A stretch of DNA of 30,874 nucleotides from a virus (IMGVR_UViG_3300021961_000396:1-30874); one strand, 5' to 3'; positions 4,401 to 28,452 are shown, counted from the first letter of the stretch. A program made the numbers and translations. The notes: generated by a model not told the origin, from the letters alone.

Positions 4401-7400
4401 AAACCAATTCTGTCAGAGCAGTGACTTGATTTTTTGTAAACTTAAACAACTCACGCACCAACTCAACAAACTTGCCATAAGCGGTAAGATTTGAACGGTC
4501 AGGTGTAAAGCTGTTTAAGAAGGTTTCAAATACTGGTTCGCTTAGTGCATACGCAATAAACTCTTCAGGCTTGTTAGGGTTAAATACATCTCCCCCAGAG
4601 CTGTCTACTATGTCAGCTACCGCTGCGGTTAAAACTTTGTCTCCAGTACCAAACTTGGCTGAAACCGCAAATTCAACTGCAGCCGCACGCTGTAGGGCCT
4701 GTATGTCGGCGTAGAAATCCCTTTCCGCTTTGGATGCTAGTATGCCAAGCGCATCGCCAGCTTGCACAACTAAAATTTTGCGATCTAATGCCGCATGCAA
4801 AGCCTCATGCAAGACAGTTATGGCGTTAATACCTTGTAGGGCGTCCCCCCAACTAGAACCGCGTACATAAGTTACAGCACTAATTTTGCCGTCATCTAGT
4901 ATTTTTGTTTCTGTGATCCCTATAGCGTCCGCGTTCTTACCAGCAAATTTATCTGCTGCAGGGTCGCCTTTTTCTACAACAACAAATCTGGCATTGCCGA
5001 CAGCGTTGGAGATACGCTTTGCAATCAACCTCATGAGCGGAGTAGGGGCTGTATCCGCAACAATCTTAAGTGCTTCTTTAACTGTAGTGGCGTTATTAAA
5101 CTTACCGTTAACAGTAGCTATGCGTCGATCTCTACCCGCAGCTTCTTTTTTAGCGTCACTCTTAGCTTTACTAAGGATAGCGTTTGTTCGCTTTTCAGCC
5201 GCCGCTTGACGAGCTTCTTCCCTCATCGCTTTAAACGCACGTTTAGCTCTCTCGAACACGTCTGCGCTAATTATTGGATTGGGTTTATCCCTAAATCCGG
5301 TTTTTGGATCAATAGCATATAAGAGCTGCCCCAAACGCCGACGATGAATGTTATTGGGCATCCCTTCGTACATAAATAACATTTCGGCTATTAATTTTTC
5401 TTCTTGCCCCTTTAACTTCTCTATATAGTTGCCTACTGCAGCGCTAGCTTTGCTACTGCCAGATTCTAGCGTAGCGGCTAGTGCGTCTTCTCGACCACCG
5501 TCGTCTCTATAAAGTTTGGTAAACCGCTCCCTAAACTCCTTAACGACTCTGGTATAGTAGGTGTTATCCGAAACAACTTTCTTTCGTGCTTTCTTTTGTT
5601 CGGCGCGTTCTGGTGTGCCTTCTTCGGTAAGCGGTGGTCTACCACGACGACCCTTACGTTTAGCACGTTGTCTTTCGGCTTCTGCAGCAGCAGCGTCGTA
5701 TTTAGCTCGTGCTTCAGGACTAAGATCATTAATGATGTCCTCTATGGTACGTGATAGTTTTGCGGTGGGTTGCGGTTCACCTTCACTTTCACTTTTACCT
5801 GCGTCTTCAAACAGATCACGCTGGGACTTACTGGTTTTTTCTGTTAGCGACTGTCCCGCTCTGCGACGCCGTTGCTCTGCTTGTAGTTCATTGATTTCAT
5901 TTTGAATAACAGCAGCTTCTGCCGTACCATCACCAGCCGCGTCTAGCTCGTCCATCCGACGCTCAATAAGCCGTGTGAGTTCTGTGTTGCTTACATCAGT
6001 TGGTGCAGCTCTGGCAGGGATTGTGGTCGTAGTGGTTTTACCATCGCGCTCAATAGTGGTGGTAGCTGTAGACCCCGGACTAAACTGCCCTAATGCTACT
6101 TCTGGCATGTTAGCTGTCAAGTCCACTGGAGCGCCTAAATCAATTACATCAGCGGCTTCTTGCCCAGCAGTAACTTCTGGAGCTACCCCCATACCCGTAA
6201 CATCCGCAGCGGGGGTTTCTGTTTCACGTTGCGCTTCACGCTCTGCGGCTTCTAGTTGGTCATTTAGATCATCTAAGGCTCGTAGCGTAGCTTCTTCTTC
6301 TGAATAGCCAGCGCCTAAATATTCGTCGTAAAAAACGGCAAATTGATTACGGGCATCAACACGGGCTTTTTCTTTTTGGCGAACATCTTCGTCTTCAGCG
6401 ACTTGGTACTCAATATTGGCTTGGGCCTGTGCTTGGGCATCTTTTTCGTCGTATCCCAACTTTAAAAGCCTATTGAACTCAGCTTCAACAGCGGCCTCTC
6501 GCTCTTCTGGCGTTGCAGGAACGGGGGTTGTAGGTCTTAATTTAGCCTGTAATTCGTCGTACTCGGCTTGCTCTTCTTCTGTTAGTTCCCGACCAAAAGT
6601 CCCCTCTGAAACTACCGGTACGCCGTTTTCGTCACGGACGGTTTCGCCTTGTTCATCAGTAGCAATTACTGGATTACCGGTAATGATGCTGTCTAGTTCA
6701 GCTAACCGAGTGCGCTCCTTAAGCTCAGCTTGTGCGCGAGCCATGTCTTCTTTAAGAATGTCCGCATCTTCCATTGCTCGGAGAGTCTGCCGAGCCTGTC
6801 TAACTTCAAGGGCACCTGCACCTGCACCAAGGGGGGCACCTGCGCCAGCTTCCAGCACACCAGAAGTCACTACGCCTCGCATAGTAGGTACATCAAACCC
6901 TTCGCGCTGCAGTGCAATGTTCTGAGCTAGCTGTTCATACCCACCTTGTGCGCCTTCGCCAAGAGCTTCTGCCCCTGCAGTTAGTGCTGCCTGCCCCGGC
7001 ATAGTCCGTGCGGCTGTTTTTGCAACTTCTTCTTTAGCAGCTTCGGCTGTAGCTCTCTCGGCGGCTTCTTTACCTAAGCTCTTCTTTAAAGTGGCGTTAA
7101 TCCTGCTACGGAAAAACGATTTACCCAGACCTGTAATTTCGGCAAGCGCGTTAATACCGCCACCAGCAATAATCAAGTCTAAGTTTTCACCGGCATAGCT
7201 TTGAGCGGCTTCGGCTCTTGCAGCAGCTTCTTCTTCGGGTACGTTCTTTTGCTTCAGCGCCCCCTTAACTGCGTCATACACCTCACCTTTAATCAAGCCC
7301 ATACCGGTACCAAGACCAACAGTACCAGCCGTAACACCAGCAGCCAAAGCGCCACCGCCTGTGGCTATAGTAAGAGCGCCAGCAGCCAAAGTTGGTACCG

Positions 7401-7992
7401 CAGTACCAAGAGCTTGAGAAATCAAATCTATGGGGGCTACGGCAAGAGCTTCAAGACCCGCCAGTACTTGATCGCCTATACCCTTGTCTTTAGCGTCTTC
7501 CCAAATACGACTGACTTCAGCCGCATCGCGTTTAGCTTGAGCGCTTAGTAAACCAGCTAAGTGAGTATCCGCTTTCTCAAGAGCCTGCGCCGCTTCGCTA
7601 CCAGCGCCGAACATATCGACACCAGCTTTTGCAATCATCAACGCGCCACGCTGGAACTGCAACGGTACGTCTGCTACAGACCGCCAAAAAGTTTGGTTGT
7701 CGGCTTGCTCTTGTGAGGGTAGCGCTTCTTCGCCCGGTTTAGCAGCGGGCTGTGTTACAAACAAATTAGGCTGAGCGCGTTTTAGGTTTTCAAGCGCCTG
7801 CTCTCTGGGTACATCCGCAGGGATGTCGTTGATGACTTGACCACTTGGGGTAGTTATGGAATACGGTGAGGTCGGCTTAGAGAACAACTCTGGCCGACGC
7901 ATTTGCAACTGACGTAAAGCCTCTGCCTGTGGTACATCATCAGGGATGTCGTTGATAACCTGCCCGCTAGGAGTAGTCAAAGAGTAGGGCAT
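1405..7992 (-). CDS. Giant polyvalent virion/ejection protein (2195 aa) with HExxH metallopeptidase-like site
   Basis: This is the last gene of the late operon and probably a DNA-ejection/internal virion protein. Two tandem copies of a motif with core PSGQVINDIP open the protein (residues about 3-37 and 43-77). A Gly/Ala-rich hydrophobic stretch that could cross a membrane lies at about 180-230. A long charged, Glu/Lys/Arg-rich coiled-coil middle follows. A zinc-protease signature HEALH is at residues 1062-1066, with a PEEFIAY segment at about 1142-1148 whose Glu could be the third metal ligand, as in gluzincins. The C-terminal third (about 1640-2150), with FQFMMFPVQM near 1855 and a hydrophobic SLWIVAGTAGLPFG segment near 1895, resembles domains (LPD38-like) seen at the ends of large polyvalent phage proteins. 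It follows the 949-aa virion gene after 12 bases. Domain names other than the visible motifs are from memory. Confidence 0.8.
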   Translation of the reverse strand: MPYSLTTPSGQVINDIPDDVPQAEALRQLQMRRPELFSKPTSPYSITTPSGQVINDIPADVPREQALENLKRAQPNLFVTQPAAKPGEEALPSQEQADNQTFWRSVADVPLQFQRGALMIAKAGVDMFGAGSEAAQALEKADTHLAGLLSAQAKRDAAEVSRIWEDAKDKGIGDQVLAGLEALAVAPIDLISQALGTAVPTLAAGALTIATGGGALAAGVTAGTVGLGTGMGLIKGEVYDAVKGALKQKNVPEEEAAARAEAAQSYAGENLDLIIAGGGINALAEITGLGKSFFRSRINATLKKSLGKEAAERATAEAAKEEVAKTAARTMPGQAALTAGAEALGEGAQGGYEQLAQNIALQREGFDVPTMRGVVTSGVLEAGAGAPLGAGAGALEVRQARQTLRAMEDADILKEDMARAQAELKERTRLAELDSIITGNPVIATDEQGETVRDENGVPVVSEGTFGRELTEEEQAEYDELQAKLRPTTPVPATPEEREAAVEAEFNRLLKLGYDEKDAQAQAQANIEYQVAEDEDVRQKEKARVDARNQFAVFYDEYLGAGYSEEEATLRALDDLNDQLEAAEREAQRETETPAADVTGMGVAPEVTAGQEAADVIDLGAPVDLTANMPEVALGQFSPGSTATTTIERDGKTTTTTIPARAAPTDVSNTELTRLIERRMDELDAAGDGTAEAAVIQNEINELQAEQRRRRAGQSLTEKTSKSQRDLFEDAGKSESEGEPQPTAKLSRTIEDIINDLSPEARAKYDAAAAEAERQRAKRKGRRGRPPLTEEGTPERAEQKKARKKVVSDNTYYTRVVKEFRERFTKLYRDDGGREDALAATLESGSSKASAAVGNYIEKLKGQEEKLIAEMLFMYEGMPNNIHRRRLGQLLYAIDPKTGFRDKPNPIISADVFERAKRAFKAMREEARQAAAEKRTNAILSKAKSDAKKEAAGRDRRIATVNGKFNNATTVKEALKIVADTAPTPLMRLIAKRISNAVGNARFVVVEKGDPAADKFAGKNADAIGITETKILDDGKISAVTYVRGSSWGDALQGINAITVLHEALHAALDRKILVVQAGDALGILASKAERDFYADIQALQRAAAVEFAVSAKFGTGDKVLTAAVADIVDSSGGDVFNPNKPEEFIAYALSEPVFETFLNSFTPDRSNLTAYGKFVELVRELFKFTKNQVTALTELVSAIDAGISTRSSRKVIQAAIAAEMSSNANKRERKTRNDMKNLAKEQDSVAKGYEESEDSGKVKDSILGSVDLRSSGAAVESLKTVFTTATNKGRRNLAKVLTLPLLAEIAERMGLKSVADGAATVGKMNSMADNILLGAQETLDNTFRTFQGRPKAMSAFTRLALQSTLLNIDPSTNFSSPQLNKLYAALDEKGKREYIRMRDYFQGMTQMYTRFLDDRVNNLGLSAKEEANVLEKIKAMYETGAKIYPFFPLKRFGDYWIRIGTGKDRKFFTFESEFARDQAVKKFAKARNMTVDAFLDQKEGTKSYAKIGNKINGLRGELFSDNMAKTLQDIFNAIDAMDSADADAKEKLKDDVYQTYLATLPDQSIRKQFLHREGITGYSTDFLRSFVEAATHNAFQLSRIKYGPELRRAASAGMKAAGNDIALQVLAEEFDNRTDYNLNTFNESPEQKFLRQTVSFLNQSSFIYYLSAIASPMLQMFQLGITGFNTLGANYGFTNATAEISKLAKVWNQYSVFKKNDDGSVTITAPSLARSKAVQINDRERNAMEKLLRHDVVRVTLAAEITELSKVPLKSLEGSFSQSAKQIVQIPGKMMQATEQLAREMLALTAYRLAYKKHGNHEAAVEEAAFHVSDAMGNYAAYARPPFMRGPLGGLMFQFMMFPVQMTGWFVKNFARSIPFLKANKEGKMLAFKLWASSMASLWIVAGTAGLPFGLGTMMLGVLNQLFDEAKDDDDFPEEYKDMDFDFYVRKIWLPSQVGHIKINDVPLDMIIDYGPLSALSGVDFSSRLSMNGMFIRENKAEATLEAEWQNALIDRMGPAVNMITSFVKGIDALRVGDVQKFGEKIAPAALRAPMYAEKYSKQGIVDWEGTVLTPADQVELGKLLAQAIGFRPLELTEQGYRTFTQRAVEQAIQYEKNRIYTRLYRAYVADDMKEFKRLLVEDVEKFNQKHKFFRIKDEDIERSLEGRFEQRAIKQETGGFNMNERNAPLILPLIREK
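7762..7986 (-). repeat. Tandem duplicated N-terminal motif of the giant protein
   Basis: Two copies of about 35 residues, 40 residues apart, share Y-S-(L/I)-TTPSGQVINDIP-x-DVP, then an Ala/Leu-rich helix and a x-P-x-LF end. The DNA copies have drifted at many third positions, so the duplication is old and kept by selection on the protein. Similar 'P-G/D-G-x-I-x-x-I/V-P' motifs occur at the starts of other large phage virion proteins. The role is unknown; capsid targeting or packing is one possibility. Confidence 0.75.
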
Positions 7993-15940: not shown

Positions 15941-16405
15941 TTAGGCTACGAGTCCGGGCAAGTACACCGTTTTACCATCTTTTTTGGTAGCAGTAAGCAC
16001 TTGCTTTTTGTTGTCCGCAGGATTAAAGCTCACATGCACCCAGCCTGAGTCGGGGACGCCGGGGGTGTAGAACTCCAGAATAACTTGGCGAAACTGCATG
16101 TGATCCACAATCCATTGCGCTAAATCTGCGTTGGCAATGCCGGGAATCTCAATGTCCGCCGCCATACCCTTGCAGTGATCTGAAGTTTTAGAACCTCCAA
16201 CTTTCGCGTTTACATCTGGGTGGCGGAAGCCCGAATTGACTTTAACGCCCATACCATAATGCTCACGCACAGGTTGGAGCACATTTTCGCATAGAGCGGT
16301 CATGTTGGCAATCTCTTCTTCACCGGGAGTATTGTCCATATCTAGGCGTAAGGCTGTATCGCTCTTGGTCATCTCCGCTAGGCTGAAGTTTCTCGTTAGT
16401 TGCAT
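15941..16405 (-). CDS. Peptidase M15 endolysin (D-Ala-D-Ala carboxypeptidase-type, 154 aa)
   Basis: The protein has the Peptidase_M15_3 layout: an N-terminal FSLAEMTKSDTA segment, then SGFRHPDVNAKVGG at about 58-71, SDHCKGMAADIEI with the zinc ligands His77 and Asp84, and GWVHVSF with the third ligand His124. The family cuts peptide cross-links in peptidoglycan. There is no signal peptide, so it needs the holin encoded just upstream for release. Its length is normal for the family and the domain is complete. An AAAGGAAACTGGA ribosome site precedes the ATG at 16405. The start lies 86 bases inside the preceding small gene, in another frame. Confidence 0.92.
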   Translation of the reverse strand: MQLTRNFSLAEMTKSDTALRLDMDNTPGEEEIANMTALCENVLQPVREHYGMGVKVNSGFRHPDVNAKVGGSKTSDHCKGMAADIEIPGIANADLAQWIVDHMQFRQVILEFYTPGVPDSGWVHVSFNPADNKKQVLTATKKDGKTVYLPGLVA

Positions 16406-16595
16406 TTCCAGTTTCCTTTAGTAGCACCTGAATACAGGTCACATCGTACGCCCGAACGTCCGGGTCTTGTTGCATTTTCTGGGCAGCTTTGCGGTTGACC
16501 GCTTCGCACTCATGCAGATACCGCTCGACGTAAGAATAGTGAAAGGCACACTCACCACTCACCAAACACACGAAGGCGGTGGGTATCCACAACAC
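16320..16595 (-). CDS. Small Cys-containing protein of the lysis cassette (91 aa), overlapping the endolysin
   Basis: A GTG start (TAGTG, overlapping the holin stop by one base) opens a short hydrophobic segment (LWIPTAFVCLVSGECAF). Cysteines are at positions 10, 16, 30 and 54, which would suit a periplasmic disulfide protein. Residues 21-45 form a charged helix. The last 30 residues are polar and are encoded within the endolysin gene in another frame. Similar small proteins often stand between holin and endolysin in phage genomes, but I know no tested function. An Rz1-like or antiholin role is possible and unproven. The overlapping C-terminal part may be dispensable. Confidence 0.6.
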   Translation of the reverse strand: MLWIPTAFVCLVSGECAFHYSYVERYLHECEAVNRKAAQKMQQDPDVRAYDVTCIQVLLKETGNATNEKLQPSGDDQERYSLTPRYGQYSR

Positions 16596-17005
16596 TACTT
16601 CTTACCCTTCATGTCGATGATCTTCTCCAACGTGCGTCCGCCAAAGTAAAACGACATAATAAGCATGCCCCACTGCCCAAGCAACTCGACATAGGCTGGA
16701 TTGGCATCCTTACCGAAAGCTGACATCATGGCAAAAGTGAAGTAGCCCAACAGAATGGCGCACAGCGTCATGGGCCGGATGTTCTTAGACAGCCAGCTAT
16801 CGCTCGCCATATCCGCCTTCAGACGATCTGTCAGGTTGTTCTGCTCAGTTTCGTACAGCTTGGTGTCATTAGCCATCTTTGCCAGCTCACCGTCTTGCTG
16901 CATCTTGAGCAGCTCTGCTTGGGCCTTGGCCTTGGCTTCGGGGTCTGGGATTAGCTTATCGACGAGCTTGCCGCCGATTTCCAATAGTCCTGCGAGTGGA
17001 ATCAT
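16595..17005 (-). CDS. Holin of the GTA three-TM family (136 aa)
   Basis: The protein resembles the 'holin of 3TMs, for gene-transfer release' family. A hydrophobic/amphipathic start (PLAGLLEIGGKLVDKLIP) is followed by DPEAKAKAQAELLK and an amphipathic helical region to about residue 65. The family signature DSWLSKNIRPMT lies at about 69-80, followed by two membrane segments (about 80-97 and 107-124) and a basic tail. It would form holes in the inner membrane that release the M15 endolysin. It begins on the stop codon of the previous gene (TAATG). Confidence 0.85.
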   Translation of the reverse strand: MIPLAGLLEIGGKLVDKLIPDPEAKAKAQAELLKMQQDGELAKMANDTKLYETEQNNLTDRLKADMASDSWLSKNIRPMTLCAILLGYFTFAMMSAFGKDANPAYVELLGQWGMLIMSFYFGGRTLEKIIDMKGKK

Positions 17006-17244: not shown

Positions 17245-17465
17245 TTGTGTATCTCCACAAGGTAGTCGGTGCAAGTGCCATCAGCCACACATTCAGGCGG
17301 CATACATTCGGGTTTACCCTGATTTGCAGGGTCTTGGCATGGGTAGCGGTATTGGTCAGAACATCCAGCGATTGCAAATATTGCGGCTACCAACATAAAC
17401 CCCGCCATAAACCACAGGACTCTAACCGTAATGTATTTCGCTATAAACAATACAGTTGCTTTCAT
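17241..17465 (-). CDS. Small outer-membrane-type lipoprotein, possible o-spanin (74 aa)
   Basis: The ATG at 17465 overlaps the previous gene's stop (ATGA), with GGAAG 11 bases upstream; an upstream in-frame ATG at 17483 is less likely. A basic start is followed by a hydrophobic signal (about 12-34) and a lipobox AIAGC with the lipid-attached Cys35. The mature part is about 40 residues, rich in Cys and Pro (PCQDPANQGKPECMPPECVADGTC), with four further Cys. The size and position, before holin and endolysin, suit an Rz1-like outer-membrane spanin subunit. The high Cys count is unusual for Rz1, so this is a candidate only. Confidence 0.65.
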   Translation of the reverse strand: MKATVLFIAKYITVRVLWFMAGFMLVAAIFAIAGCSDQYRYPCQDPANQGKPECMPPECVADGTCTDYLVEIHK

Positions 17466-17938
17466 ACACCGTTTTGCTTCCATTCAATCGCCGTGGCGAC
17501 CATACCCCAAATCGCCCAAATACCCAGACCCAAAACGACCGCAAGCAGGCAGTACATCATCACGTCTTTGCGGCGCTGGGCTTGGAAAATGATCTCGCGC
17601 TCGCGCTTGAGCTTAATCTGGCGCTGCATTTGCAGCAGCTCTTCAAACGCCTGCGGACCATAACGCAGCTTGACCATAGACATCAACTCTAGGTGTTGCT
17701 TACGTACAGCTTCCCGGCGTTGGAGCTGCTCCATTGCCTCTTGTTCGACAGACTTGCCGCTGCCGATGCGTTTGAAGATACTGGGTTTTTTGTTGTCGAG
17801 CGCGTTGAGTTCGCTGACTTTACCCATCCATGCGCCGATTTGACCGAGCACATCCTCGACTTCACGACCAGCTTCGACCAGCTTCTTGACTGTATTAAAT
17901 GCAGCCGTAGCCGCCATAAAAAGACTAATCGGGTCCAT
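17462..17938 (-). CDS. Coiled-coil membrane protein with C-terminal TM segment (158 aa)
   Basis: The start MDPISLFMAATAAFNTVKK, a following helix ending in GAWMGKVSEL, then an EQEAMEQLQRREA... coiled coil (about 63-122) are familiar from small proteins of aquatic phages placed just before lysis genes. A single strong membrane segment lies at about 126-149 (MMYCLLAVVLGLGIWAIWGM), leaving a short C-terminal tail. The topology is the reverse of a classical Rz i-spanin (N-terminal anchor), so I do not call it a spanin. It could organise the lysis complex at the inner membrane. It follows the oxygenase gene after 3 bases. Confidence 0.65.
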   Translation of the reverse strand: MDPISLFMAATAAFNTVKKLVEAGREVEDVLGQIGAWMGKVSELNALDNKKPSIFKRIGSGKSVEQEAMEQLQRREAVRKQHLELMSMVKLRYGPQAFEELLQMQRQIKLKREREIIFQAQRRKDVMMYCLLAVVLGLGIWAIWGMVATAIEWKQNGV

Positions 17939-17941
17939 TTT

Positions 17942-18424
17942 TTACCTGTATCCTTGCGGTTTTGTAGCCCAAGGGTTAATGGCAACAGCAACGCGAGTCC
18001 CAGTAAAATCGGATACCCCGTGTTCAATATTTGGTCCAAACACTATCATTCGATTTGTTTTGGGATTGATGGCTACATCTTTTGTCATAAACTTGCCGCC
18101 GATTAGTGATTCAATACTTGCGTAAAAAACAATGCTACATATCGGCGTTGCCACCTCACCTGTGCGCCTGACCAAAACTTCATCCATATCTATATGCCAA
18201 TCAGTTTTTGTGCCGTCGTGCGCCCACTGCTCAACGCCGCTCATCCCAGACAAATCAAATACGCGAGAGGCTACGTTCAAAATACTAGACACAGGTGACT
18301 TTAATTCCATAAATTCGTCAAGCGTGCCGTCAATCCAACGCAACTGATGATAAGCAACGTCTTCAAAGTGGTCCTGCATTACCCACAGGCTTTGCTCATC
18401 CAAAACATTATCTGCAATTAACAT
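17942..18424 (-). CDS. 2-oxoglutarate/Fe(II)-dependent oxygenase A (160 aa)
   Basis: The protein has the full metal and cosubstrate set of the prolyl-4-hydroxylase-like group: HID (His77, Asp79) in WHIDMDE, the distal His135 in NIEHGV, and Arg144 in GTRVAVAINPW for 2-oxoglutarate. Strands such as ICSIVFYAS and NRMIVFGPN fit the double-stranded beta-helix core. It is short but complete. Such enzymes hydroxylate or oxidise proteins, nucleic acids or small molecules; the substrate cannot be read from sequence. Its start overlaps the end of a second oxygenase gene by 7 bases, so the two are probably made in matched amounts. It sits directly before the lysis cassette. Confidence 0.85.
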   Translation of the reverse strand: MLIADNVLDEQSLWVMQDHFEDVAYHQLRWIDGTLDEFMELKSPVSSILNVASRVFDLSGMSGVEQWAHDGTKTDWHIDMDEVLVRRTGEVATPICSIVFYASIESLIGGKFMTKDVAINPKTNRMIVFGPNIEHGVSDFTGTRVAVAINPWATKPQGYR

Positions 18425-18978
18425 TTGTTAAGAATCACGGCCAAAGTTAGTCGGTATTGAGGCGCTAAATGAGACTGCGGGCGAATTGTGTGCGGTATTT
18501 TTGCATCAAACGCAATTAAGCGGTTGGGCGTATAGGCGTTTGCAAACACAACATCTTTGCCAGTTTCTTCATAAAACAGCGTCTCACCGTGCCAACCGTC
18601 TTGCCATTCCAAATTTACGTAGTACAGCAAAACTTTGTCTTCTGGGTGAGCATGAATAAAATTGGCATCGGATGCGGTAGACAGGTTAAGAATGCACTTT
18701 TCTACTTTGTGCCCCACCATCTCTTGCGCCACAGGCGTGTTCGCCAGACGTTCTAACACGCCCAAACGCTCAATGTCTTCCGCAGAATAAGCAGAGTGCA
18801 GGCTTTGGTACTGAGATTTTTCTGGTGTTAAATTGTCAGCCCACCCAATCCGAAACAGTGACGCTTGGGCAAAAGCCATCACAGCATAACGGTACTGCAA
18901 ATCAAACACGTCGTCATAGACTCGCAGGGTGCGGCCGTTGTCAGTCTGAAACTCTTTCGTAAGCGTGCATGAAAACAT
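18418..18978 (-). CDS. 2-oxoglutarate/Fe(II)-dependent oxygenase B (186 aa)
   Basis: The C-terminal half follows the P4H-type pattern: a His-rich metal site HAHPED at 109-114 (His111-x-Glu113 or His109 as ligand set), the common phrase KVLLYYVNLEWQDGWHGETLFY at about 115-136, PNRLIAFDAKIPHTIRP with distal His163, and Arg176 in YRLTLAVIL. The HxD Asp seems replaced by Glu or shifted, which is worth noting for activity. It is clearly different in sequence from oxygenase A, so the pair is not a simple recent duplication. The gene starts 39 bases after desaturase 1, the widest gap in the operon, and has only a weak AAAGAAAG ribosome site. Confidence 0.82.
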   Translation of the reverse strand: MFSCTLTKEFQTDNGRTLRVYDDVFDLQYRYAVMAFAQASLFRIGWADNLTPEKSQYQSLHSAYSAEDIERLGVLERLANTPVAQEMVGHKVEKCILNLSTASDANFIHAHPEDKVLLYYVNLEWQDGWHGETLFYEETGKDVVFANAYTPNRLIAFDAKIPHTIRPQSHLAPQYRLTLAVILNKC

Positions 18979-19017
18979 CTGTTCGTACTTTCTTTTTAAG
19001 TGGTTGTTTTCACCATT

Positions 19018-19803
19018 TTATTTGGTATTTGGCGCTTGTAGTAACAATCCAACAAGCCTTGACCAATAGTCTGTCACACCGCTTGATGAATAGTCAAGCA
19101 ACTGCCCGTGCTTGTGGTGATGCTTGTGTAAGAATATAGGGTTAACAAAACGCGCCAAAAACAAATTGTCAACAGACTTGTCTAGTCCCTCTATTTTAGG
19201 GTTGTGCGAAAATGCGTTTACAAAAAGGGCGTTATGGATTGATAGCTGACAGGCAATCAAAAAAGCACAACTTATAAGAGGCGACAGCGCATACAGAGAC
19301 ACGTGAAAGACCCAAGGCACAAGCCACTCATATTTGCGGAACGTAAGCATCCAAGGGTAGTCTCGCATTAAGTCTTGAACGCGCAACACATCTTTTGGGG
19401 TTGGTCTGTATGTGGCAATCCAGCCAATATACGCATGAAATCGACCATGCAGTGGCGTGTGCGGGTCCTTGTCTGTGTCTGAATATTTATGGTGCGCCCT
19501 ATGGATCATTGCCGAACTAAGAGGGTCGCCATAAAAGGCTATTGAACCAAAAAAGGCGCACAGGTATGGATAAAAACGCCGCGCCTTAAAAGCTCTGTGG
19601 GCAAACAGTTTGTGATATCCAATTGCTTGTCCAAGTTGGTGCACGGGGTAATACAACAAAGCGCCGCACAAAACAACAAACAACCACTGGTCTGACTCAA
19701 ACAACGTGTAAAAAACCAAAAATGGGAGCAACGGCAACACCACAAACATTTTTAGTAACGTTACGCTACGCAAAAGTACCTTGGTTTTTGACGTTGAAGA
19801 CAT
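19018..19803 (-). CDS. Membrane fatty-acid desaturase 1 (acyl-CoA/acyl-lipid type, 261 aa)
   Basis: Three His boxes of integral-membrane di-iron desaturases are present: HKLFAH at 64-69, HRAHH at 101-105 followed by KYSDTDKDPH, and HKHHH at 226-230. Asn191 and the SHNP segment near 200 match the region of the fourth site in SCD-type enzymes. Four hydrophobic segments (about 18-35, 39-57, 78-95 and 162-188) fit the usual two hairpins. The enzyme would introduce a double bond into membrane acyl chains, using O2 and host electron carriers; no fused cytochrome b5 or ferredoxin is present. Box 3 lacks the usual GE-x-x-H-x-x-HH lead-in, so regiospecificity cannot be told. The gene starts 20 bases after desaturase 2. 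Confidence 0.88.
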   Translation of the reverse strand: MSSTSKTKVLLRSVTLLKMFVVLPLLPFLVFYTLFESDQWLFVVLCGALLYYPVHQLGQAIGYHKLFAHRAFKARRFYPYLCAFFGSIAFYGDPLSSAMIHRAHHKYSDTDKDPHTPLHGRFHAYIGWIATYRPTPKDVLRVQDLMRDYPWMLTFRKYEWLVPWVFHVSLYALSPLISCAFLIACQLSIHNALFVNAFSHNPKIEGLDKSVDNLFLARFVNPIFLHKHHHKHGQLLDYSSSGVTDYWSRLVGLLLQAPNTK

Positions 19804-19823
19804 TTGCGTAAGTAACTTCTACA

Positions 19824-20546
19824 CTAAGCGGTTCGTTTTTTTATCATCCTGACAACCAATGATCCCAAATCAAAGTGATACCATTTAGACGAAAATTTCC
19901 AAGACCTTGCGCGGTTGTGATGCGATCCATGCAACCACTCACCTGATGACGGCAGGATAAACTCCATAAACCACCAGTCTCGCGGCTTGTCTCCCATGTG
20001 GCTAAATGTGTTGTGGCAAGCGCCAACAAAATGCGCCATGCCGACTGCTGGCAAATAACCAAAAACAAAAAACTCTGGAGATATTGCAAAAATTGCAAGA
20101 GCCATAACAGCCCAAATTCCAACGTAATACTTGTCGATGAAAAGTTGTAGCGGGTCTCTTAACATCCTGCGGCACAATATTGTTTTCATTGGCACATTAC
20201 GGTAGCTCTTTCGGAGCATTGTTGTCATGGTCATTGGTTTTTCATGCGGGTCTTTGTCTGAATCGGGATATTGATGATGCGTAGCGTGCGTTACAACCCA
20301 TTGCAAAGCACTGCTGTACATAAACAGAACGCCGTATAACGCAAAAAAACTATGCCAGAAACGATTGGTTTCAAAAGCGCCATGACAAAAAAGCCTGTGG
20401 TATCCAACGCTAACAGTGAACGTGCCAACCACGTACATGGCAATCGCATACGGGAATAAAGACGTATTTACAAACAACGCATACAAAAAGGCAACAACGC
20501 CAATGTGATAAGCAATTGTTGCCATCCAGTCTTTATGTCTAAGCAT
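19824..20546 (-). CDS. Membrane fatty-acid desaturase 2 (acyl-CoA/acyl-lipid type, 240 aa)
   Basis: The three His boxes are complete and closer to the standard Delta-9 pattern: HRLFCH at 50-55, HATHH at 87-91 with QYPDSDKDPH after it, and GEWLHGSHH with HGSHH at 206-210. CHNTFSH at 178-184 supplies the conserved Asn/His region. Hydrophobic segments at about 10-45, 66-82 and 142-175 suit a four-helix membrane enzyme. It is shorter than most bacterial homologues (about 300-400 aa) but lacks no core motif. Its similarity to desaturase 1 is limited outside the boxes, suggesting old divergence or separate acquisition. The start overlaps the stop of the upstream small gene (TAATG), with AAGGAG before it. 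Confidence 0.9.
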   Translation of the reverse strand: MLRHKDWMATIAYHIGVVAFLYALFVNTSLFPYAIAMYVVGTFTVSVGYHRLFCHGAFETNRFWHSFFALYGVLFMYSSALQWVVTHATHHQYPDSDKDPHEKPMTMTTMLRKSYRNVPMKTILCRRMLRDPLQLFIDKYYVGIWAVMALAIFAISPEFFVFGYLPAVGMAHFVGACHNTFSHMGDKPRDWWFMEFILPSSGEWLHGSHHNRARSWKFSSKWYHFDLGSLVVRMIKKRTA

Positions 20547-21049
20547 TACCGCTCCTTGTTAAACATCAGCCCATAAGTTTTTGTTATTGCAGTAAATTGA
20601 GTTCCCTCGGTCACCACTTTATACGTTTTTGGCCCTTGAACAGCATCGCCGCCATTGACCGTAAACTTGCCCTCTGCCAAAAAAAGCAAAGCGCCAACAT
20701 CAAACGTGGCGGTGTCGCCAGCTTCAATAATAGTTTTTGTCACTTCTGGCACTTCGCCGCCGTTAGCAACCGCGTGCGTACACCACCATTTTGTGTCTGA
20801 TTCTACTTTCCAAATGTATTTACCAGCAGGTAGTGACAAACTCAAATCGGTAAGGTCGCCTGCGGCTCTGCCGCGAACGTTGCTTTCGCTTACTACATTT
20901 CCAGCCACCCAGTACGCAATTGTTTTGGCGGCGGCAAAACTTGTGTCAGTAGGCACAACCACGCTGTACCTGTAACCAGCAGGTAACTCTTTGTAAAAAT
21001 AAGTCCAACCAAATATGGTGTGGCGCTTAAATTCCATTATTGGACTCAT
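20546..21049 (-). CDS. Small beta-rich protein of the metabolic cassette, possibly cupin-like (167 aa)
   Basis: I recognise no firm family. The second half is strand-rich with repeated turns: GKYIWKVESDTKWWCTHAVANGG, EVTKTIIEAGDTATF, VGALLFLAEGKFTVNGG, then KTYKVVTEGTQFTAITK. That series would fit a single-domain beta-barrel such as a cupin, but a full His/Glu metal set is not seen. It is coupled on both sides: its ATG overlaps the stop of the 100-aa gene (ATGA), and its stop overlaps the start of desaturase 2. It may be tail-associated rather than metabolic, since it also borders the receptor-binding genes. A later ATG at 21037 is possible. Confidence 0.55.
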   Translation of the reverse strand: MSPIMEFKRHTIFGWTYFYKELPAGYRYSVVVPTDTSFAAAKTIAYWVAGNVVSESNVRGRAAGDLTDLSLSLPAGKYIWKVESDTKWWCTHAVANGGEVPEVTKTIIEAGDTATFDVGALLFLAEGKFTVNGGDAVQGPKTYKVVTEGTQFTAITKTYGLMFNKER

Positions 21050-21348
21050 ACGTCTTCCGCTTTCAACACAAACACTGTATCTGCCAGCACATTTTCAGGC
21101 TGAACTTCAACTGTTGGCACAATTGTGCCGCTTGATCCAACGGCTGGAACCGATATCGGACGCTTTAACGTCTCCCAGTATTGTACTGGCGCATACATCG
21201 CAATTACATCTTCCAGCGATTCGCCGTCAAAAGGTATGCGTGCGCCAATATGTTGAGTTGGATGACCGTCTGCCTCGTAGACAACAACCATGCAACGCGC
21301 CTCTGTATCAACAGATTCAATTGAGTATGTATATTCTATGCTCATCAT
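21046..21348 (-). CDS. Small protein next to the adhesin, candidate tail-fibre accessory (100 aa)
   Basis: The frame is open upstream into the adhesin gene, but AAAGGA just before two consecutive ATGs (21348 and 21345) marks the true start; 21345 would give slightly better spacing. The product opens with MSIEYTYSIESVDTEARCMVV and has a central ADGHPTQHIGARIPFDGESLEDVI segment, a pattern seen in small phage proteins beside tail-fibre genes. It is mostly beta, with no membrane segment or signal. A role as assembly chaperone or small tail component is inferred from position only. Confidence 0.6.
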   Translation of the reverse strand: MMSIEYTYSIESVDTEARCMVVVYEADGHPTQHIGARIPFDGESLEDVIAMYAPVQYWETLKRPISVPAVGSSGTIVPTVEVQPENVLADTVFVLKAEDV

Positions 21349-21356
21349 TTTTTCCT

Positions 21357-22217
21357 TTATCCAAGTGTGCCGTATCTTGTTCCCGTTGCCAACCAAGTCA
21401 CATAAGACTGTCCTGATGTGGCCGCGCCGCCACCGCCACCCGCGCCGGGATCGCCAGCGCCATAAGCCTTTGCACCAGCCGATCCGCTAGAACCCCAGCC
21501 GCCACCCGCGCCACCAACACCAGAAGTATTGCGACCAGCGCCACCAGAGCCAGCGGCACTTACTGTGCCAGCATTACCAGCGTAAGCGCCACTTGTGCCA
21601 CCAGATGAGTTTGTTAAGCCAGACCGACCGCCGCCGCCGCCACCGCCATAGTCGTAGCCAATGGCCTTACCTATGGTGTATACCGATCCACCGCCACCGC
21701 CACCGCCACCGCCGCCACCAGCAATGGTCCCATTGTTTTCAATACTTACAGGAACAGAAATTAACAGGGCAAGACCACCGACGCCACCGGGCTGTCCGGG
21801 CGGTGAGTTATATGCGTATCCACCGCTACCGCCATTACCGCCGTCACCGACCACAGTGCCGTTGTTTACAAACTTAACGCCGCTTGGGAATGCGCCGTTA
21901 ATTGTCAGGGCTGGCGTACCTGTACCCGTACTGCTTATGTAAATGCCAGAGTCTAATGTGGCAACAAGCGATGTGGATTCATCCCATCCAGCGGCTACTG
22001 CAAGCGACCGTAAGTTTGCGTCAGTGGTATTGCTTGCAATGGTGAAAGCAAATTCACTAGACTTTCCATAGCCGTCAGACATGGAAATCGCCCCGCTTGC
22101 TACTCCAAACAAACCACGTACAGCAGCATCATTCAGACTAATTTGAGCCGTACCAGATAAGCCAAGTTCGACGTTAACGTCATTGAACGATATTGCGCCA
22201 GAACTAGGTAATGCCAT
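21357..22217 (-). CDS. Poly-glycine receptor-binding adhesin (286 aa)
   Basis: The N-terminal 52 residues (ALPSSGAISFNDVNVELGL ... MSDGYGKS) form a conserved attachment module, with the SISLND-like phrase repeated once. A small strand-rich region follows (53-118). From 119 to 265 the protein is dominated by glycine, including an unbroken run of 11 Gly (167-177), one of 7 (191-197) and a near run at 259-264, separated by short variable loops. This layout resembles the polyglycine-II sandwich of T-even gp38 tip adhesins, where the loops between Gly runs contact the receptor. A strong AAGGAGG site precedes the ATG. Receptor binding is inferred from composition and position. Confidence 0.7.
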   Translation of the reverse strand: MALPSSGAISFNDVNVELGLSGTAQISLNDAAVRGLFGVASGAISMSDGYGKSSEFAFTIASNTTDANLRSLAVAAGWDESTSLVATLDSGIYISSTGTGTPALTINGAFPSGVKFVNNGTVVGDGGNGGSGGYAYNSPPGQPGGVGGLALLISVPVSIENNGTIAGGGGGGGGGGGSVYTIGKAIGYDYGGGGGGGRSGLTNSSGGTSGAYAGNAGTVSAAGSGGAGRNTSGVGGAGGGWGSSGSAGAKAYGAGDPGAGGGGGAATSGQSYVTWLATGTRYGTLG

Positions 22218-22228: not shown

Positions 22229-22945
22229 TTAAACAGTACCGTAGGCCGTGATGTTACCGATAACTGTTAAGTTACCAGAAGAATCTAGCTTACCAACATT
22301 AGTACCGTCATAGCTAAAAAGAAGATCAGTCCCGCTGGGCGTAATACTCCAACCACCCGAGTTCGTAATGTTGTTAGCACTCGCAGCGTTTCCAGTAATT
22401 GATATATCCCATGTACCAGATGCGCCTGTACCGGTTGGAGATGGAACATCGGTACCAATTACCAAGCCAAGGTTTGTTCGAGCGTCAGACGCTGTTGAAG
22501 CACCTGTACCACCCGAAGAAACCGGTATATGCGTTGTAACCTCGGTAACATTAGTCCCATCGACATACAAAAACATCGACTTACCATTGGGCACCGTAAT
22601 GCCAGAACCACCGGAGGTTTTAACAATAATGCTTTGACCGCCAGAAGTATTATTCTGTACTACATAAGGTTTCTCAATTGTTGGCACAACCAAATTACGC
22701 GTAGCTGTAAGGCTACCACTGGATGTAACGTTTAACACCAAATTACGAGCTACCTGTGTGGCATTTGAATCTGAAAGTGTTAAAGTTAAGTCAGCATCCG
22801 ACGTAAAGTTCGGGTTACCGTAACCGACAATGGCTTCTTCTAGCGCTGTGCCAAGGTTAGTATTAGTAGTTGTACCCCAAGTACCAGCTTGTTCACCTGT
22901 GGCAACAAGCTCAATCTTTAGGTTAGTAGAGTAATTCGATGCCAT
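22229..22945 (-). CDS. Tail-fibre-like protein (238 aa)
   Basis: The start KIELVATGEQAGTWGTTTN, the middle VSSGGTGASTASDARTNLGL and the end phrase IGNITAYGTV are common in tail-fibre proteins of environmental phages, where GGTG-x-ST-x-x-AR-x-NLG repeats mark trimeric shaft segments. Only one GGTGASTA repeat is present, so this is a short fibre or an adaptor between fibre and baseplate. It is rich in Thr, Ser, Gly and Asn, with no Cys. It lies between a repeat protein and the adhesin in one fibre cluster. AAGGAC stands before the ATG. Confidence 0.7.
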   Translation of the reverse strand: MASNYSTNLKIELVATGEQAGTWGTTTNTNLGTALEEAIVGYGNPNFTSDADLTLTLSDSNATQVARNLVLNVTSSGSLTATRNLVVPTIEKPYVVQNNTSGGQSIIVKTSGGSGITVPNGKSMFLYVDGTNVTEVTTHIPVSSGGTGASTASDARTNLGLVIGTDVPSPTGTGASGTWDISITGNAASANNITNSGGWSITPSGTDLLFSYDGTNVGKLDSSGNLTVIGNITAYGTV

Positions 22946-22954: not shown

Positions 22955-23593
22955 TTACGTTGGAATTTGTGTCCAACTAGGGGTCTGACTTGTATCAACC
23001 AGCCCCCATACGTTAGTGTATCCAATAACACCTAAACCGTACACCCCCGCTACGGATACTATAGAGGCACCGGTTGCCGAAGCAGTACCAAGAGCCGTTG
23101 TACCTACAAGACCCGTTACTGATATTAAACTAGACCCGGTAGCCGTTGCATTACCAAGCGCAGTCGTACCGACAAGTCCAGTAACCGAAATAATGTTGTT
23201 GGTAACAAGACTAATGTTCCCCAGCGCAGTGGTAGCCGCGAGCCCGGCAGTGGGCGCATTAGCATCGGCGGTAACAGTTATCGCGCCAAGCGCCGTAGTA
23301 CCAGCAACACCCGTCTCAGCAATTACGTTGTTGGTAACAAGACTAATATCCCCAAGCGTAGCCGTACCACTAACACCGGTCAGAGATACATTAGCCTCTG
23401 CATAAATAGAGACAGTACCTGTCTGTCCTGTACCCTCAACCCCTGTCTGAGCCAGAATCTGGTCAGTAACGAAATCAACAGTACCAACCGTACCGGTTGC
23501 TTCCACCCCCGTAACAGCAACGAGCGCATTAGGCGACTCAATTATGGACGTTGCAAACGGGGCTGCGGCAAACGGGTACTGGGCGTAAGCCAT
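22955..23593 (-). CDS. Repeat-rich structural protein (212 aa)
   Basis: After MAYAQYPFAAAPFATS the protein consists of about eight imperfect repeats of 20-22 residues of the form (V/L)TGV-x-GTTALG-(N/D)(I/A)-x-(V/A)T, each giving two short strands and a Gly turn. Such a pattern suggests a beta-solenoid or stacked-strand fibre. At DNA level two copies of a roughly 30-base segment (near 23194 and 23321) are close to identical. The last 30 residues (GYTNVWGLVDTSQTPSWTQI) break the pattern and contain Trp. It is translationally coupled to the S74 fibre (TAATG), so it is likely a tail-fibre partner. I know of similar repeat proteins in aquatic phages, with no tested role. Confidence 0.65.
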   Translation of the reverse strand: MAYAQYPFAAAPFATSIIESPNALVAVTGVEATGTVGTVDFVTDQILAQTGVEGTGQTGTVSIYAEANVSLTGVSGTATLGDISLVTNNVIAETGVAGTTALGAITVTADANAPTAGLAATTALGNISLVTNNIISVTGLVGTTALGNATATGSSLISVTGLVGTTALGTASATGASIVSVAGVYGLGVIGYTNVWGLVDTSQTPSWTQIPT

Positions 23594-25935
23594 TACTCGC
23601 CTTTCAGGGCTTTAATCTCTGCGCGAAGTTCTTTTATGCCTTCAATAAGCAACGGGACTAAACGTTCATAACGCACAGTCAAGTACTTCTCATCAATAGG
23701 CGCGGGGGCAACAACTTCAGGCATAACGGCTTGGACTGACTGAGCGGATACACCTACTTCACGGACAACTTCGTAACCTAAATCCTGCGCTGTTTGGTTT
23801 GCCTCGTAATAGAAGCCAGCAAGGGAATCAATCTTATCAAGCGCGTTTCCAATATTACCCAACTTGGTTTTAAGTCGGTCGTCAGAGTAATACGCCGTGA
23901 TGTTGTTTGTAGCGCGAATCTCACCAGCCGTACCAGAAGCCGCAGTACCAACACCAAATGAATTGACTTGATAGTTATTGCCAGTGTTTAGTGCGTTTGC
24001 TGTGGTGGCTGTTGTGGCGGTTGTGGCGGTTGTGGCGGTTGTGGCCGTTGTGGCAGTAGCGGCATTGCCAGAAGTATCCTGATTACCTGCTGAGTTAACC
24101 CCGGGCAAGTTGATGTTAGCGGTACCATCAAAAGATACACCACCAATTGTGCGGGCAGTTGCCAACGCAGTGGCGGTCGAAGCGTTACCCGTCAGCGCAG
24201 CCGTAATAGTTCCAGCAGTGAAGTTACCAGAAGCATCGCGGGCAACGATAGTAGAAGCTGTGTTTGCGTTGGTAGCGTTACTGGTTACCGTAAAGGTCGA
24301 GCTACCTGACTGATCTGCCGTAAACGTAGCTGAACCAGACAGCCCTGTGCCTGACACCGCCATTGTCAGCGTGCCATTGTTTGGGGCGGGTACTACTGCC
24401 CATGACGTAGCTGACCCGTTTGTGGTCAAGTACTTACCGGAGTTACCGGTTTGAGACGGAGCTAAATTATTAAACCCACCATCTGCCGTCGAAGAGTTCG
24501 TACCGCCATTAGCAATAGGCAATATGCCGGAGACGTGGGTAGTCAGCGCTACCTTACCCCAACTAGGAGCCACGCCAACACCACCAGAGAGGAGTGCGTT
24601 GCCTGTGGCGACATCGGCTAGTTTGCTTAGGGTCGTTGAACCAGACGCGTAAACAATGTCACCAATTGTGTAGCTAGTAAGTCCAGTACCGCCATAAGCA
24701 GCGCCAATAGTGCTAGCGTTCCAAGTACCGGCAGTAAGAGTACCAACGCCAGTAATTCCAGTATAAGAACCAGAAATCCGAGCGGAGGATAAAGTACCTG
24801 AAGAAATGTTGGACGCATCTGTGGTGTCAGTAGTTGCGGAAGCCGCCAACGCAGTCCAAGTAGGCGCAGCAGAAGCTGAACCGGTACCTGTCTGAGTCAG
24901 GTATTTCGCTGTTGTAGTCGTGTTGCCCGCCAGCCTCGCAAGTGAGTCGCTTGCATTAGAGTACAGAACATCGCCAAGCGTATAGGTGTTAGTGCCGGTA
25001 CCGCCGTTGGTCTCGTCGATCGTTCCGGTAATAGAAATAGTCTGACCGGTAACGTTAATGTTCGTGCCGCCGGTATAAGCTGGAGTGGCAGCAAACTGGG
25101 AGAACGTGATGTTTGTAGTGCCGAAGGTAATCGTACCTGTAGTCGTCAGCACATACGACTCACCCGCCCCGGTATCACCTTGTTGTACATAGAATGAATC
25201 ACCCGCCCCAAAAGAATCCGGGTCGCTTGGGCCGTAAGAATCCGCGTCAGTTGCACGGGTAAGTACCCAGTTTGTTGAGCCAGAGCCAACATCCGTAACC
25301 GTGTAAACGCCGTTCTGTGTAGCATCGGCCTGTTGGTAAATCAAAACACGGTCGGCTACATTTAGTGTGATCCCATCAATAACAAGCGCTGCTTGCGTAC
25401 CTGCATTGGTAAGCGTAGCTCCAACACCAGCAGTGCCGTTGTTGTACGTAACAGTCAACGCAATGGGGGATTCAACCCGAACCGGGTCGTGGTAGTGCAG
25501 CGCAGCGGAGGTGGCGTTATCTACATAGCCTTTTGTCGCCACATCGAGGTCAGCAGACGGGCCAGTACCAACCGTAATCTTGCCACCAACCGTTACGTTA
25601 TTAGAGCCATCTTCAAAGACCGCCTTCTCGGCTGGCTGGGCGATAAACACCTCTTTAGTGCCAGCGTTGAAAGAAACCGCTAAGTCGGAATTACTAGAGG
25701 ACAGGATAGTATCCCGACTCAAAGTCGTACCACTTAGAGTAAACGTGCCTAATCCAACTTCCCACTCAGTCTCGTACCCCGGTGCAGTATTGTGGATGGT
25801 GTAATACACCGTATCCCCATCACTAATGGTAGAAGCAAAAGTTTGGAAGCCTACATAGGCCCCGGCGAGCGTAATAGTGCCCGTACCCGTCGTGGACGAG
25901 GACTCACGGACGCGGTCTTTGAGTGACAGGGCCAT
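23593..25935 (-). CDS. Tail fibre with C-terminal Peptidase_S74-type intramolecular chaperone (780 aa)
   Basis: The N-terminal 140 residues (VRESSSTTGTGTITLAGA, YVGFQTF) are a common virion-attachment module. The shaft contains GGTG-x-x-(S/T)YT-x-GD(I/V)-x-Y repeats (about residues 310, 415 and 475). A Thr/Ala stretch near 625-650 is encoded by 9-base repeats. The last 97 residues start with SDDRLKT at 684, the S-D-x-R-x-K signature of the S74 chaperone, where the chain is cut before the Ser after trimer folding. The domain goes on with DLGYEVVREVGVSAQSVQ and a C-terminal helix (YERLVPLLIEGIKELRAEIKAL). The mature fibre would therefore end near residue 683. An AGGAGG site precedes the ATG. 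Confidence 0.88.
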   Translation of the reverse strand: MALSLKDRVRESSSTTGTGTITLAGAYVGFQTFASTISDGDTVYYTIHNTAPGYETEWEVGLGTFTLSGTTLSRDTILSSSNSDLAVSFNAGTKEVFIAQPAEKAVFEDGSNNVTVGGKITVGTGPSADLDVATKGYVDNATSAALHYHDPVRVESPIALTVTYNNGTAGVGATLTNAGTQAALVIDGITLNVADRVLIYQQADATQNGVYTVTDVGSGSTNWVLTRATDADSYGPSDPDSFGAGDSFYVQQGDTGAGESYVLTTTGTITFGTTNITFSQFAATPAYTGGTNINVTGQTISITGTIDETNGGTGTNTYTLGDVLYSNASDSLARLAGNTTTTAKYLTQTGTGSASAAPTWTALAASATTDTTDASNISSGTLSSARISGSYTGITGVGTLTAGTWNASTIGAAYGGTGLTSYTIGDIVYASGSTTLSKLADVATGNALLSGGVGVAPSWGKVALTTHVSGILPIANGGTNSSTADGGFNNLAPSQTGNSGKYLTTNGSATSWAVVPAPNNGTLTMAVSGTGLSGSATFTADQSGSSTFTVTSNATNANTASTIVARDASGNFTAGTITAALTGNASTATALATARTIGGVSFDGTANINLPGVNSAGNQDTSGNAATATTATTATTATTATTATTANALNTGNNYQVNSFGVGTAASGTAGEIRATNNITAYYSDDRLKTKLGNIGNALDKIDSLAGFYYEANQTAQDLGYEVVREVGVSAQSVQAVMPEVVAPAPIDEKYLTVRYERLVPLLIEGIKELRAEIKALKGE
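24002..24055 (-). repeat. Nine-base tandem repeat in the fibre gene
   Basis: About six copies of a 9-base unit (TGTGGCGGT on the + strand, with minor changes) encode a run of Ala-Thr-Thr triplets in the fibre. Units are multiples of three, so copy number can change without a frameshift and would lengthen or shorten the linker just before the S74 domain. Confidence 0.85.
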
Positions 25936-26387: not shown

Positions 26388-27038
26388 TCAAGTTATTGGA
26401 ACACGTACCTGACCAGAACGGTACGAGTCTTGCCTTTCAAGCCCATCTCCAAGCCGTTTAGCTAGTTGAAGTGCCTCGTTGTACTTAGCATTGTATAGCT
26501 GCAGTAAGTCAGACTCACCTTTCATAAAGGTGTAAGCCTCGACCAAAGAGCCGTACAACAGTACGGAATCAAAATTATCTCCAAGCCACGACGTACCGGC
26601 AGTAACAATCGAGTTCGGATAGTAGTAATAGTGCATCTCTACCGTGTAGTTAGCGTCGGGAGTTGGACCAAGAATAAAAGTCAACTCGTCTGGATTGCTA
26701 GACTGAGGGCCAAAAATTGCATAGTATTTTGGAATTCCGGTAGAGGTAGGGCTAGGGTACGCTTGACGTATAAAGTTAGTGTCTTTATTAAGCAAGTACT
26801 CGTAGTTACCCGACCCATCAATTACTGCCAAAGAATGACTTGACAGGAAATCGTTCGGACAGTTTAAGTATTTGATTCCAGTAGTGGTTGTACCGGTTAC
26901 GTTTTTGCGTAAAGACGGGAACTGAATTGAGTTGTAGATACGCTGCTCGGCTTGCTCAACAAATGTAGCAAGCTCTGTTGCACTGAAAGTATTTTCAGTG
27001 TAGTCCTGTATAGCAGTCGTCAACTCAGAGTAGTTCAT
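26388..27038 (-). CDS. Head-tail adaptor-like protein A (216 aa)
   Basis: The protein begins NYSELTTAIQDYTEN, followed by FVEQAEQRIYNSIQFPSLRKNVTG and the phrase CPNDFLSSHSLAV. It has a helical C-terminal part (LVEAYTFMKGESDLLQLYNAKYNEALQLAKR). This strand middle plus helical hairpin at both ends is the usual layout of podovirus adaptor proteins between portal and nozzle (T7 gp11, SU10-type adaptors). It overlaps the preceding zinc-ribbon gene by one base (TAATG). The family call is by pattern, and the pairing with a second adaptor-like protein nearby is notable. Confidence 0.62.
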   Translation of the reverse strand: MNYSELTTAIQDYTENTFSATELATFVEQAEQRIYNSIQFPSLRKNVTGTTTTGIKYLNCPNDFLSSHSLAVIDGSGNYEYLLNKDTNFIRQAYPSPTSTGIPKYYAIFGPQSSNPDELTFILGPTPDANYTVEMHYYYYPNSIVTAGTSWLGDNFDSVLLYGSLVEAYTFMKGESDLLQLYNAKYNEALQLAKRLGDGLERQDSYRSGQVRVPIT

Positions 27039-27759: not shown

Positions 27760-28452
27760 TTACCCTATAGTCATGTACCGTGGTACAAGTTGGAACGTAG
27801 CTTTTTCTCTATCTTCAGTAGCAGCAAGCTCCCACGCTTCGTCATACTGTTGTTTGAGTAAGTCAATACGTCCAAGTCCGTTTGGTAACTTTAGCGCCAA
27901 GTAATACGCTAGACCTGCTGTCAAGCAGTTTAAAAACCGGAACGGCACGTCCATTGTATTTACACCGTTGCCAGCATCTTGGATACGACGTAAACGCCAG
28001 TACACCAGTGTGTACGTCTGGGCTGTATCTGGGATAGGCCACAAGCTGACCGATGGAGCGCTTTCCTGACGATCAATGTATATCTGTACGGGTCTACCCT
28101 GAGTTAATTTGTTCGGTATGCTAGCGTATGTAGATACACTAATGCGTGAAACACTCAAATCAGCTTGGCTAGCCGAAGACCCCGCGTCCGTACGGATTAC
28201 GTGTTCTAAAAGATCAACTGTATCAGCCGGTAGAGTATAGGTGCCTGTGCCCGGAGTAAGTACTTGCGACCCCTGCTCAACTGTCCACAGGTTAATGCCC
28301 CGGTTAGACCAGTCAGTGAACATAAGATTCAGGCTGCGCCGTGCAGTGCGAAGGTCATAGCCGGTACGTAACTCAGAACCAGCACGCTCAAACGCCTCCT
28401 CGACCAATTCGGCCAAGTCCATATTGAATATTGCGGTGCCTGATGTAGCCAT
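27760..28452 (-). CDS. Head-tail adaptor-like protein B (230 aa)
   Basis: The N-terminal helices (DLAELVEEAFERAGSELR, DLRTARRSLNLMFTDWSNRG) followed by TGTYTLPADTVDLLEHVI are widespread in podovirus adaptor/tail-tube proteins. The middle is strand-rich with VSLWPIPD and TYTLVYWRLRRIQ. The C-terminal part is helical (LNCLTAGLAYYLALKLPN, LLKQQYDEAWELAATEDRE). This helix-strand-helix layout fits adaptors like T7 gp11 or P22 gp4. It starts on the stop of the DUF5872-like gene (TAATG). Either this or adaptor-like A is probably the main portal-nozzle ring. Confidence 0.68.
   Translation of the reverse strand: MATSGTAIFNMDLAELVEEAFERAGSELRTGYDLRTARRSLNLMFTDWSNRGINLWTVEQGSQVLTPGTGTYTLPADTVDLLEHVIRTDAGSSASQADLSVSRISVSTYASIPNKLTQGRPVQIYIDRQESAPSVSLWPIPDTAQTYTLVYWRLRRIQDAGNGVNTMDVPFRFLNCLTAGLAYYLALKLPNGLGRIDLLKQQYDEAWELAATEDREKATFQLVPRYMTIG

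Follow-up and report, generated by a model that had tools for sequence, protein, structure and literature searches.

Desaturase and oxygenase genes next to a tail-fibre adhesin form a recurrent phage cassette

We describe a block of two desaturase and two oxygenase genes that directly follows the tail-fibre adhesin and its small companion genes in a podovirus-like late operon. The block represents one version of a cassette that recurs among phages, with similar sets in dozens of uncultivated ones. The window, that is, the whole stretch of DNA analysed, is a 30.9 kb virus record from IMG/VR (IMGVR_UViG_3300021961_000396:1-30874). The common reading of desaturases in phages is that they came from the host and keep membranes fluid. 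The genes described here look instead like long-established phage genes with a fixed place next to the receptor-binding tip, where they are accompanied by oxygenases of the Fe/2OG type and by U167, a conserved partner that is so far undescribed. A joint function of the cassette genes is likely. We tentatively propose a phage-specific 'host-recognition' cassette, which would oxidatively modify acyl chains of the host envelope at a late stage and in connection with the use of the receptor. Such a cassette would tie lipid-type chemistry to host recognition, and it poses a testable question: whether the target belongs to the host (its envelope) or to the phage (its tip).

The structural genes of the window lie on the minus strand, and their nearest relative is Phage DSL-LC04, with 75% identity for the endolysin and 34% for the 'stabilization protein'. 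The first-pass annotation had placed four genes for O2-dependent iron enzymes between the receptor-binding and the lysis genes, as a single coupled block; the open reading frames, all on the minus strand, agree with this. The order is adhesin, U116, U167, D1, D2, O1, O2, with holin and endolysin downstream. U167 and D1 overlap by 1 nt, D1 and D2 are separated by 20 nt and D2 and O1 by 39 nt, and O1 and O2 overlap by 7 nt. The features are:

23593..25935, minus strand: long tail fibre with a C-terminal S74 chaperone (PF13884 2e-9; tail-fibre PHROGs)
22229..22945, minus strand: tail-fibre protein (phrog_31104 4e-23; other tail-fibre PHROGs)
21357..22217, minus strand: Gp38-like glycine-rich tail-fibre adhesin, 286 aa (PF05268 9e-12; phrog_2056 1e-16)
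21046..21396, minus strand: U116, small protein without annotation, located between adhesin and U167 (its start, TTG, was set by the ORF finder)
20546..21049, minus strand: U167, small unannotated protein (pairing with a desaturase)
19824..20546, minus strand: D1, predicted integral-membrane di-iron acyl desaturase, 240 aa (PF00487 above cut-off; SCD1 profile 2e-14; His boxes)
19018..19803, minus strand: D2, second desaturase, 261 aa, of a different phage desaturase clade (SCD1 profile 5e-13; AF2 model)
18418..18978, minus strand: O1, Fe(II)/2OG oxygenase-superfamily protein, 186 aa, HxH variant (phrog_274 2e-9; NF052475 5e-12, below cut-off)
17942..18424, minus strand: O2, predicted Fe(II)/2OG oxygenase, 160 aa, HxD...H...R (PF13640 6e-5, below cut-off)
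17462..17938, minus strand: small protein lying between cassette and holin, hydrophobic towards its C-terminus (phrog_32327 1e-9; homologues hold the equivalent place in L010-L020)
16595..17005, minus strand: holin, GTA_holin_3TM (PF11351 2e-11; phrog_3427 3e-23)
15941..16405, minus strand: M15 endolysin (PF08291 7e-18; phrog_894 4e-43)

Elsewhere in the window there are two SU10-type adaptor proteins (26388-27038 and 27760-28452) and a 2195-aa protein without a Pfam match (1405-7992), a homologue of which (40% local identity) is found in contig L022 near a U167-desaturase cassette.

The identities of D1 and D2 are firm. D1 scores 31.5 bits against the Pfam FA_desaturase model, above the cut-off of 29.7, and the profiles built for both proteins match SCD1 (D1 at 2e-14 with alignment A6, D2 at 5e-13 with alignment A1). 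D2 has no Pfam match and is likewise below detection in NCBIfam; its AF2 model, made for D2 only, has a pLDDT of 85 and TM scores of 0.68-0.72 to SCD1. The His boxes are complete in both, as had been noted at first pass, and read HRLFCH, HATHH and HGSHH in D1 and HKLFAH, HRAHH and HKHHH in D2; the strict three-box pattern (HX3-4H, HXXHH, HXXHH) is passed by 94 of 108 phage homologues. Judged by sequence for D1 and by the model for D2, both adopt the stearoyl-CoA-desaturase fold and are integral-membrane enzymes, for which acyl desaturation is predicted. They match the membrane di-iron fold and the three His boxes of stearoyl-CoA and acyl-lipid delta-9 desaturases (PF00487; SCD1; the NCBIfam DesA family), but are shorter (240-261 aa) and form separate phage clades.

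The identity of O2 is also firm, and that of O1 moderate. Against PF13640 (2OG-FeII_Oxy_3) O2 scores 24.3 and O1 17.2 bits, both under the gathering score of 27, and O1 is matched at 5e-12, below cut-off, by the NCBIfam 2OG oxygenase family NF052475. The earlier call of two 2OG/Fe(II) oxygenases stands for O2, whose canonical triad is complete (WHIDMDE, H135, R144) and is conserved in contig L017 and in S-SCSM2R, whereas O1 departs from the textbook HxD...H arrangement and is assigned to the superfamily only. In O1 the motif is HAHPED, with HxH replacing HxD and the distal H and R retained; HxH is common to O1 and its homologues in L017 (72% identity) and S-SCSM2R. Relatives of both proteins also occur in Synechococcus phages. 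O1 and O2 are dispensable in at least one genome, because contig L018 (4571-4831) carries an 86-aa in-frame deletion fusion of the O1 start to the O2 end, in which both active sites are lost; D1 and c1 remain there.

The Fe/2OG-type partners found in the cassettes comprise O1, O2, an Asp_Arg_Hydrox-like protein and the family c1. The last has no Pfam or NCBIfam match, was not found in 50,697 isolated phage records, and is, according to its model, of the Fe/2OG double-stranded beta-helix fold. Its fold resembles FIH/AspH protein hydroxylases, but small-molecule halogenases and hydroxylases score equally in VIA-align, and the tied Z thus assigns no substrate class to c1. A desaturase lies at most 2.5 kb from c1 in 21 of 26 records, a proximity that is due in part to sampling. 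The list of fold matches includes BesD, HalB and WelO5 with tied scores. There are c1 paralogues (L017:4973-5683, L014:10738-11448, L006:5815-6516 and others), one with HxG (THMGHKR/THKGHKR) and the other with HxD (IHSDSKR); known 2OG halogenases have HxG as their ligand set.

A search for relatives that carry each gene singly and in unrelated places came out negative: D2 is found beside a D1-type desaturase, and D1 behind the adhesin with oxygenases downstream. Homologues of D1 in viral contigs were found through an alignment-based search, D1 as a single query giving no confirmable match there. The close ones (57-63% identical; L008-L020) retain the order Gp38-U116-U167-D1, followed, where the contig continues, by one or two copies of c1; L017 has Gp38-U116-U167-D1-c1-c1-O1-O2. 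D2 homologues are 61-66% identical in L003, L004, L006 and L007, with a more distant one in L025, and adjoin a D1-type desaturase in all five fully mapped cases. The cassette desaturases are single or in tandems of 2-4 (among 85 records, two in 14, three in four and four in one), usually with Fe/2OG-type oxygenases. The tandem of four, at L141:9333-12456 in one viral contig, is next to c1.

The order adhesin-U116-U167-desaturase is kept in relatives and spans podo-, sipho- and myovirus-like contigs as well as a Bradyrhizobium prophage-like region. Among the 85 distinct viral records, U167 is followed by a desaturase within 60 nt in 48 of 49 cases, which, as these records were found via their desaturase or c1, points to a fixed order and is not proof that U167 never stands alone. 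In the 49th case (L123, from the same prophage as L050) the desaturase PH_L123_7875_8606 overlaps the end of U167. Of 19 records examined, 12 have a match to U167, with a single copy in each. U167 has no family match of note and no solved structural relative by sequence. Searched for without the desaturase, it gave no match in isolated phages nor, by single sequence, in viral contigs, and samples of 297 and 398 bacterial genomes held none but the known prophage. By eye U167 is cupin-like, which we do not claim as an identity.

One scenario is that the block is loose moron cargo, four unrelated enzymes gathered in a variable region and having no joint function. The content downstream of D1 indeed varies among close relatives, with D2, c1, O1 and O2 coming and going. 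The near-constant U167-desaturase pairing and the recurrence of the same few families across phage types speak against this scenario, as does purifying selection, and we consider it very improbable. Where synonymous change can be estimated, dN/dS is 0.03-0.20 for D1, D2, O1, O2 and c1, and all four genes of the block are under purifying selection; loss of catalytic residues was looked for in homologues, and the residues are conserved. Because a similar set occurs in dozens of uncultivated phages, chance pick-up is unlikely, and the cassette probably alters either host surface lipids or the tail tip itself.

A second scenario, put forward in the first-pass annotation on the grounds of late expression beside the holin, is a general remodelling of the membrane (fluidity, permeability) before lysis, which would help the holin or release. 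Holin and endolysin do lie downstream of the cassette in the window and in close relatives (L012, L015, L016), and the cassette places membrane enzymes in a late operon. In other relatives, however, the cassette is followed not by lysis genes, as far as models that recognise only some of these can tell, but by the terminase (L008, L010, L013; named by eye), by a radical SAM gene (L006, L007) or by tail genes including the tape measure (L050, in the Bradyrhizobium prophage-like region). That the adhesin/U167 side is constant and the downstream genes vary favours a tie of the cassette to host recognition over one to lysis; the proposed link to lysis is weakened, and we regard it as improbable.

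Fatty-acid desaturases are on record for sea-ice phages and cyanophages (PMC7300359; reportedly also Roitman et al. 2018). Those of sea-ice phages have three His boxes, were modelled on SCD1 and have been suggested to make membranes more fluid in cold brines (PMC7300359). By the same token, the desaturases described here could be auxiliary metabolic genes that preserve membrane fluidity in the infected host under cold or saline conditions. The two sets are alike in being phage-borne and SCD1-like; however, the sea-ice phage and cyanophage genes are reported as auxiliary genes exchanged with hosts, whereas those of the window have no close counterpart among the sampled host genes and are part of a cassette linked to the adhesin, which also includes U116/U167, a second desaturase and oxygenases. 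An auxiliary role would also leave unexplained the fixed place behind the adhesin, the pairing with U167, the tandems of 2-4 and the oxygenases, and it seems to us scarcely probable. In a quick maximum-likelihood tree whose cellular desaturases are a sample of bacterial ones only, the cellular sequences are separated from 106 of the 108 phage ones (support 82). Close desaturase matches in genomes are on contigs carrying phage genes, and D2 was not found in bacterial genomes.

D1 and D2 belong to distinct phage clades, both well supported: the window's D1 is placed with podovirus-like relatives in which D2 is missing, and its D2 with siphovirus-like contigs. The different relatives imply that the pair was assembled from a shared phage gene pool, with no recent tandem duplication. 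The block had been thought more A+T-rich than its surroundings and hence separately acquired. Its GC is indeed lower (0.44-0.47, compared with about 0.50), but its GC3 (0.44-0.49) is like that of the rest of the window, and the low GC is due to amino-acid content. Codon use deviates modestly (z 2.9 for D1 and 3.6 for D2), and several structural genes deviate too. Recent acquisition, as a conclusion from base composition, is rejected because GC3 is equal; what the gene trees do show is shuffling within the phage gene pool.

Some features of the cassette are known from other phages. The hypervariable host-recognition cluster of pelagimyophages contains many enzymes, and its genes are reported as potentially modifying the surface of the host and preventing coinfection (PMC7029224). 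This tail-fibre region, in pelagimyophages and cyanomyophages, includes desaturase, Asp/Asn hydroxylase-like, acetyltransferase and MoaA-like genes, akin to the window, in which variable enzyme genes likewise lie inside the tail-fibre region, directly after the Gp38 adhesin. In the isolated Pelagibacter phage Mosig, an Asp_Arg_Hydrox gene adjoins FA_desaturase and a second is located by the tail fibres; the Mosig desaturase is ~25% identical to D1, and the window cassette is compact by contrast. Cyanophage 2OG-Fe(II) oxygenases (PF13640), of which one phage has 24 without assigned function (PMC9602691), are scattered, whereas O1 and O2 are paired and coupled to desaturases. In agreement with the first impression, no description of desaturases paired with two oxygenases was found in the literature searched, nor of the U167-desaturase unit or the four-gene arrangement; the papers listed for radical SAM plus tail fibres included nothing relevant, and NCBIfam 'FlmC' as a pathway lead gave no relevant paper. 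Defence-system models produced only generic 2OG and radical-SAM matches.

As to the substrate, the enzyme types put host-envelope acyl chains first, with somewhat less than an even chance, and the phage adhesin next, as a doubtful second. For the envelope, the cassette would be made late from the structural operon, and the desaturases would insert into the inner membrane and, with host ferredoxin-type electron donors, add double bonds to host-envelope acyl chains (phospholipid or lipid A precursors). The oxygenases would add hydroxyl groups to that component of the envelope or to one next to it. Most likely the effect would fall on the receptor surface matched by the adhesin, more than on lysis timing; for example, progeny may be kept from re-binding debris, or competing phages may be blocked. 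Against the envelope as target, no lipid-transfer, LPS or CoA gene is present within the block, and O1 and O2 are reduced to a fusion in L018. Other substrates that bear acyl groups are in principle conceivable for SCD1-like folds.

It is conceivable, though doubtful, that the enzymes modify the phage's own tail tip (the adhesin, U116 or U167), either by hydroxylation or through an acyl chain that is attached and tailored, with the desaturases finishing the acyl group. The putative target would be encoded immediately upstream in the operon, and the constant linkage is to the adhesin and U167. The likeness of c1 to FIH/AspH protein hydroxylases points in the same direction, but a fold likeness shared equally with small-molecule enzymes is no proof of substrate. 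A further argument comes from sister cassettes with adhesin-type proteins that end in CxCxC...K (L050:3560-3793 and 3806-4024, L006:1206-1847, L007, L027-L029). These add a GNAT-like protein, so named by eye and matching no family, and a radical SAM/SPASM enzyme whose nearest matches, below cut-off, are PapB-type ranthipeptide maturases. Of 10 Cys-tail records seven have a radical SAM gene, whereas the 31 Gp38 records have none; these counts ignore relatedness. Cys-tailed mini-adhesins combined with these two enzymes resemble a RiPP-type maturation of the tail tip; the combination supports enzymes acting on the tip in this sister form, and peptide-maturation enzymes fit adhesin modification better than they fit the envelope.

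In the window, on the other hand, neither a radical SAM maturase nor a Cys-rich tail was found with family models and a Cys-tail scan, and there is no GNAT; moreover, membrane desaturases of the SCD1 fold are known for acyl substrates. In its fullest form, the argument for the tip is that an oxidative enzyme line of desaturases and Fe/2OG oxygenases matures the receptor-binding tip by an acyl group, hydroxyl or cross-link on the adhesin, U116 or U167, and that in the sister cassettes a radical-SAM maturase and a GNAT-like enzyme act on the CxCxC...K tails. We consider this unlikely; if true, it would be a tail-tip chemistry without description in the literature searched.

A sister cassette is also present in a sequenced strain, Bradyrhizobium hipponense aSej3, one contig of which (L050, L143, L144) includes a prophage-like region with terminase, portal, tail and tape-measure-like genes recognised by eye. 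At the tail-fibre position this region has U167, a desaturase, GNAT, rSAM and hydroxylases, so that experiments on the cassette would be possible if the prophage is inducible. Finally, in the myovirus-like contigs L033-L040 (e.g., L033:12025-13946 and L040:8542-9423), desaturases lie near PP-loop (SGGLDS, AsnB-like), radical SAM and c8 oxygenase-like genes.
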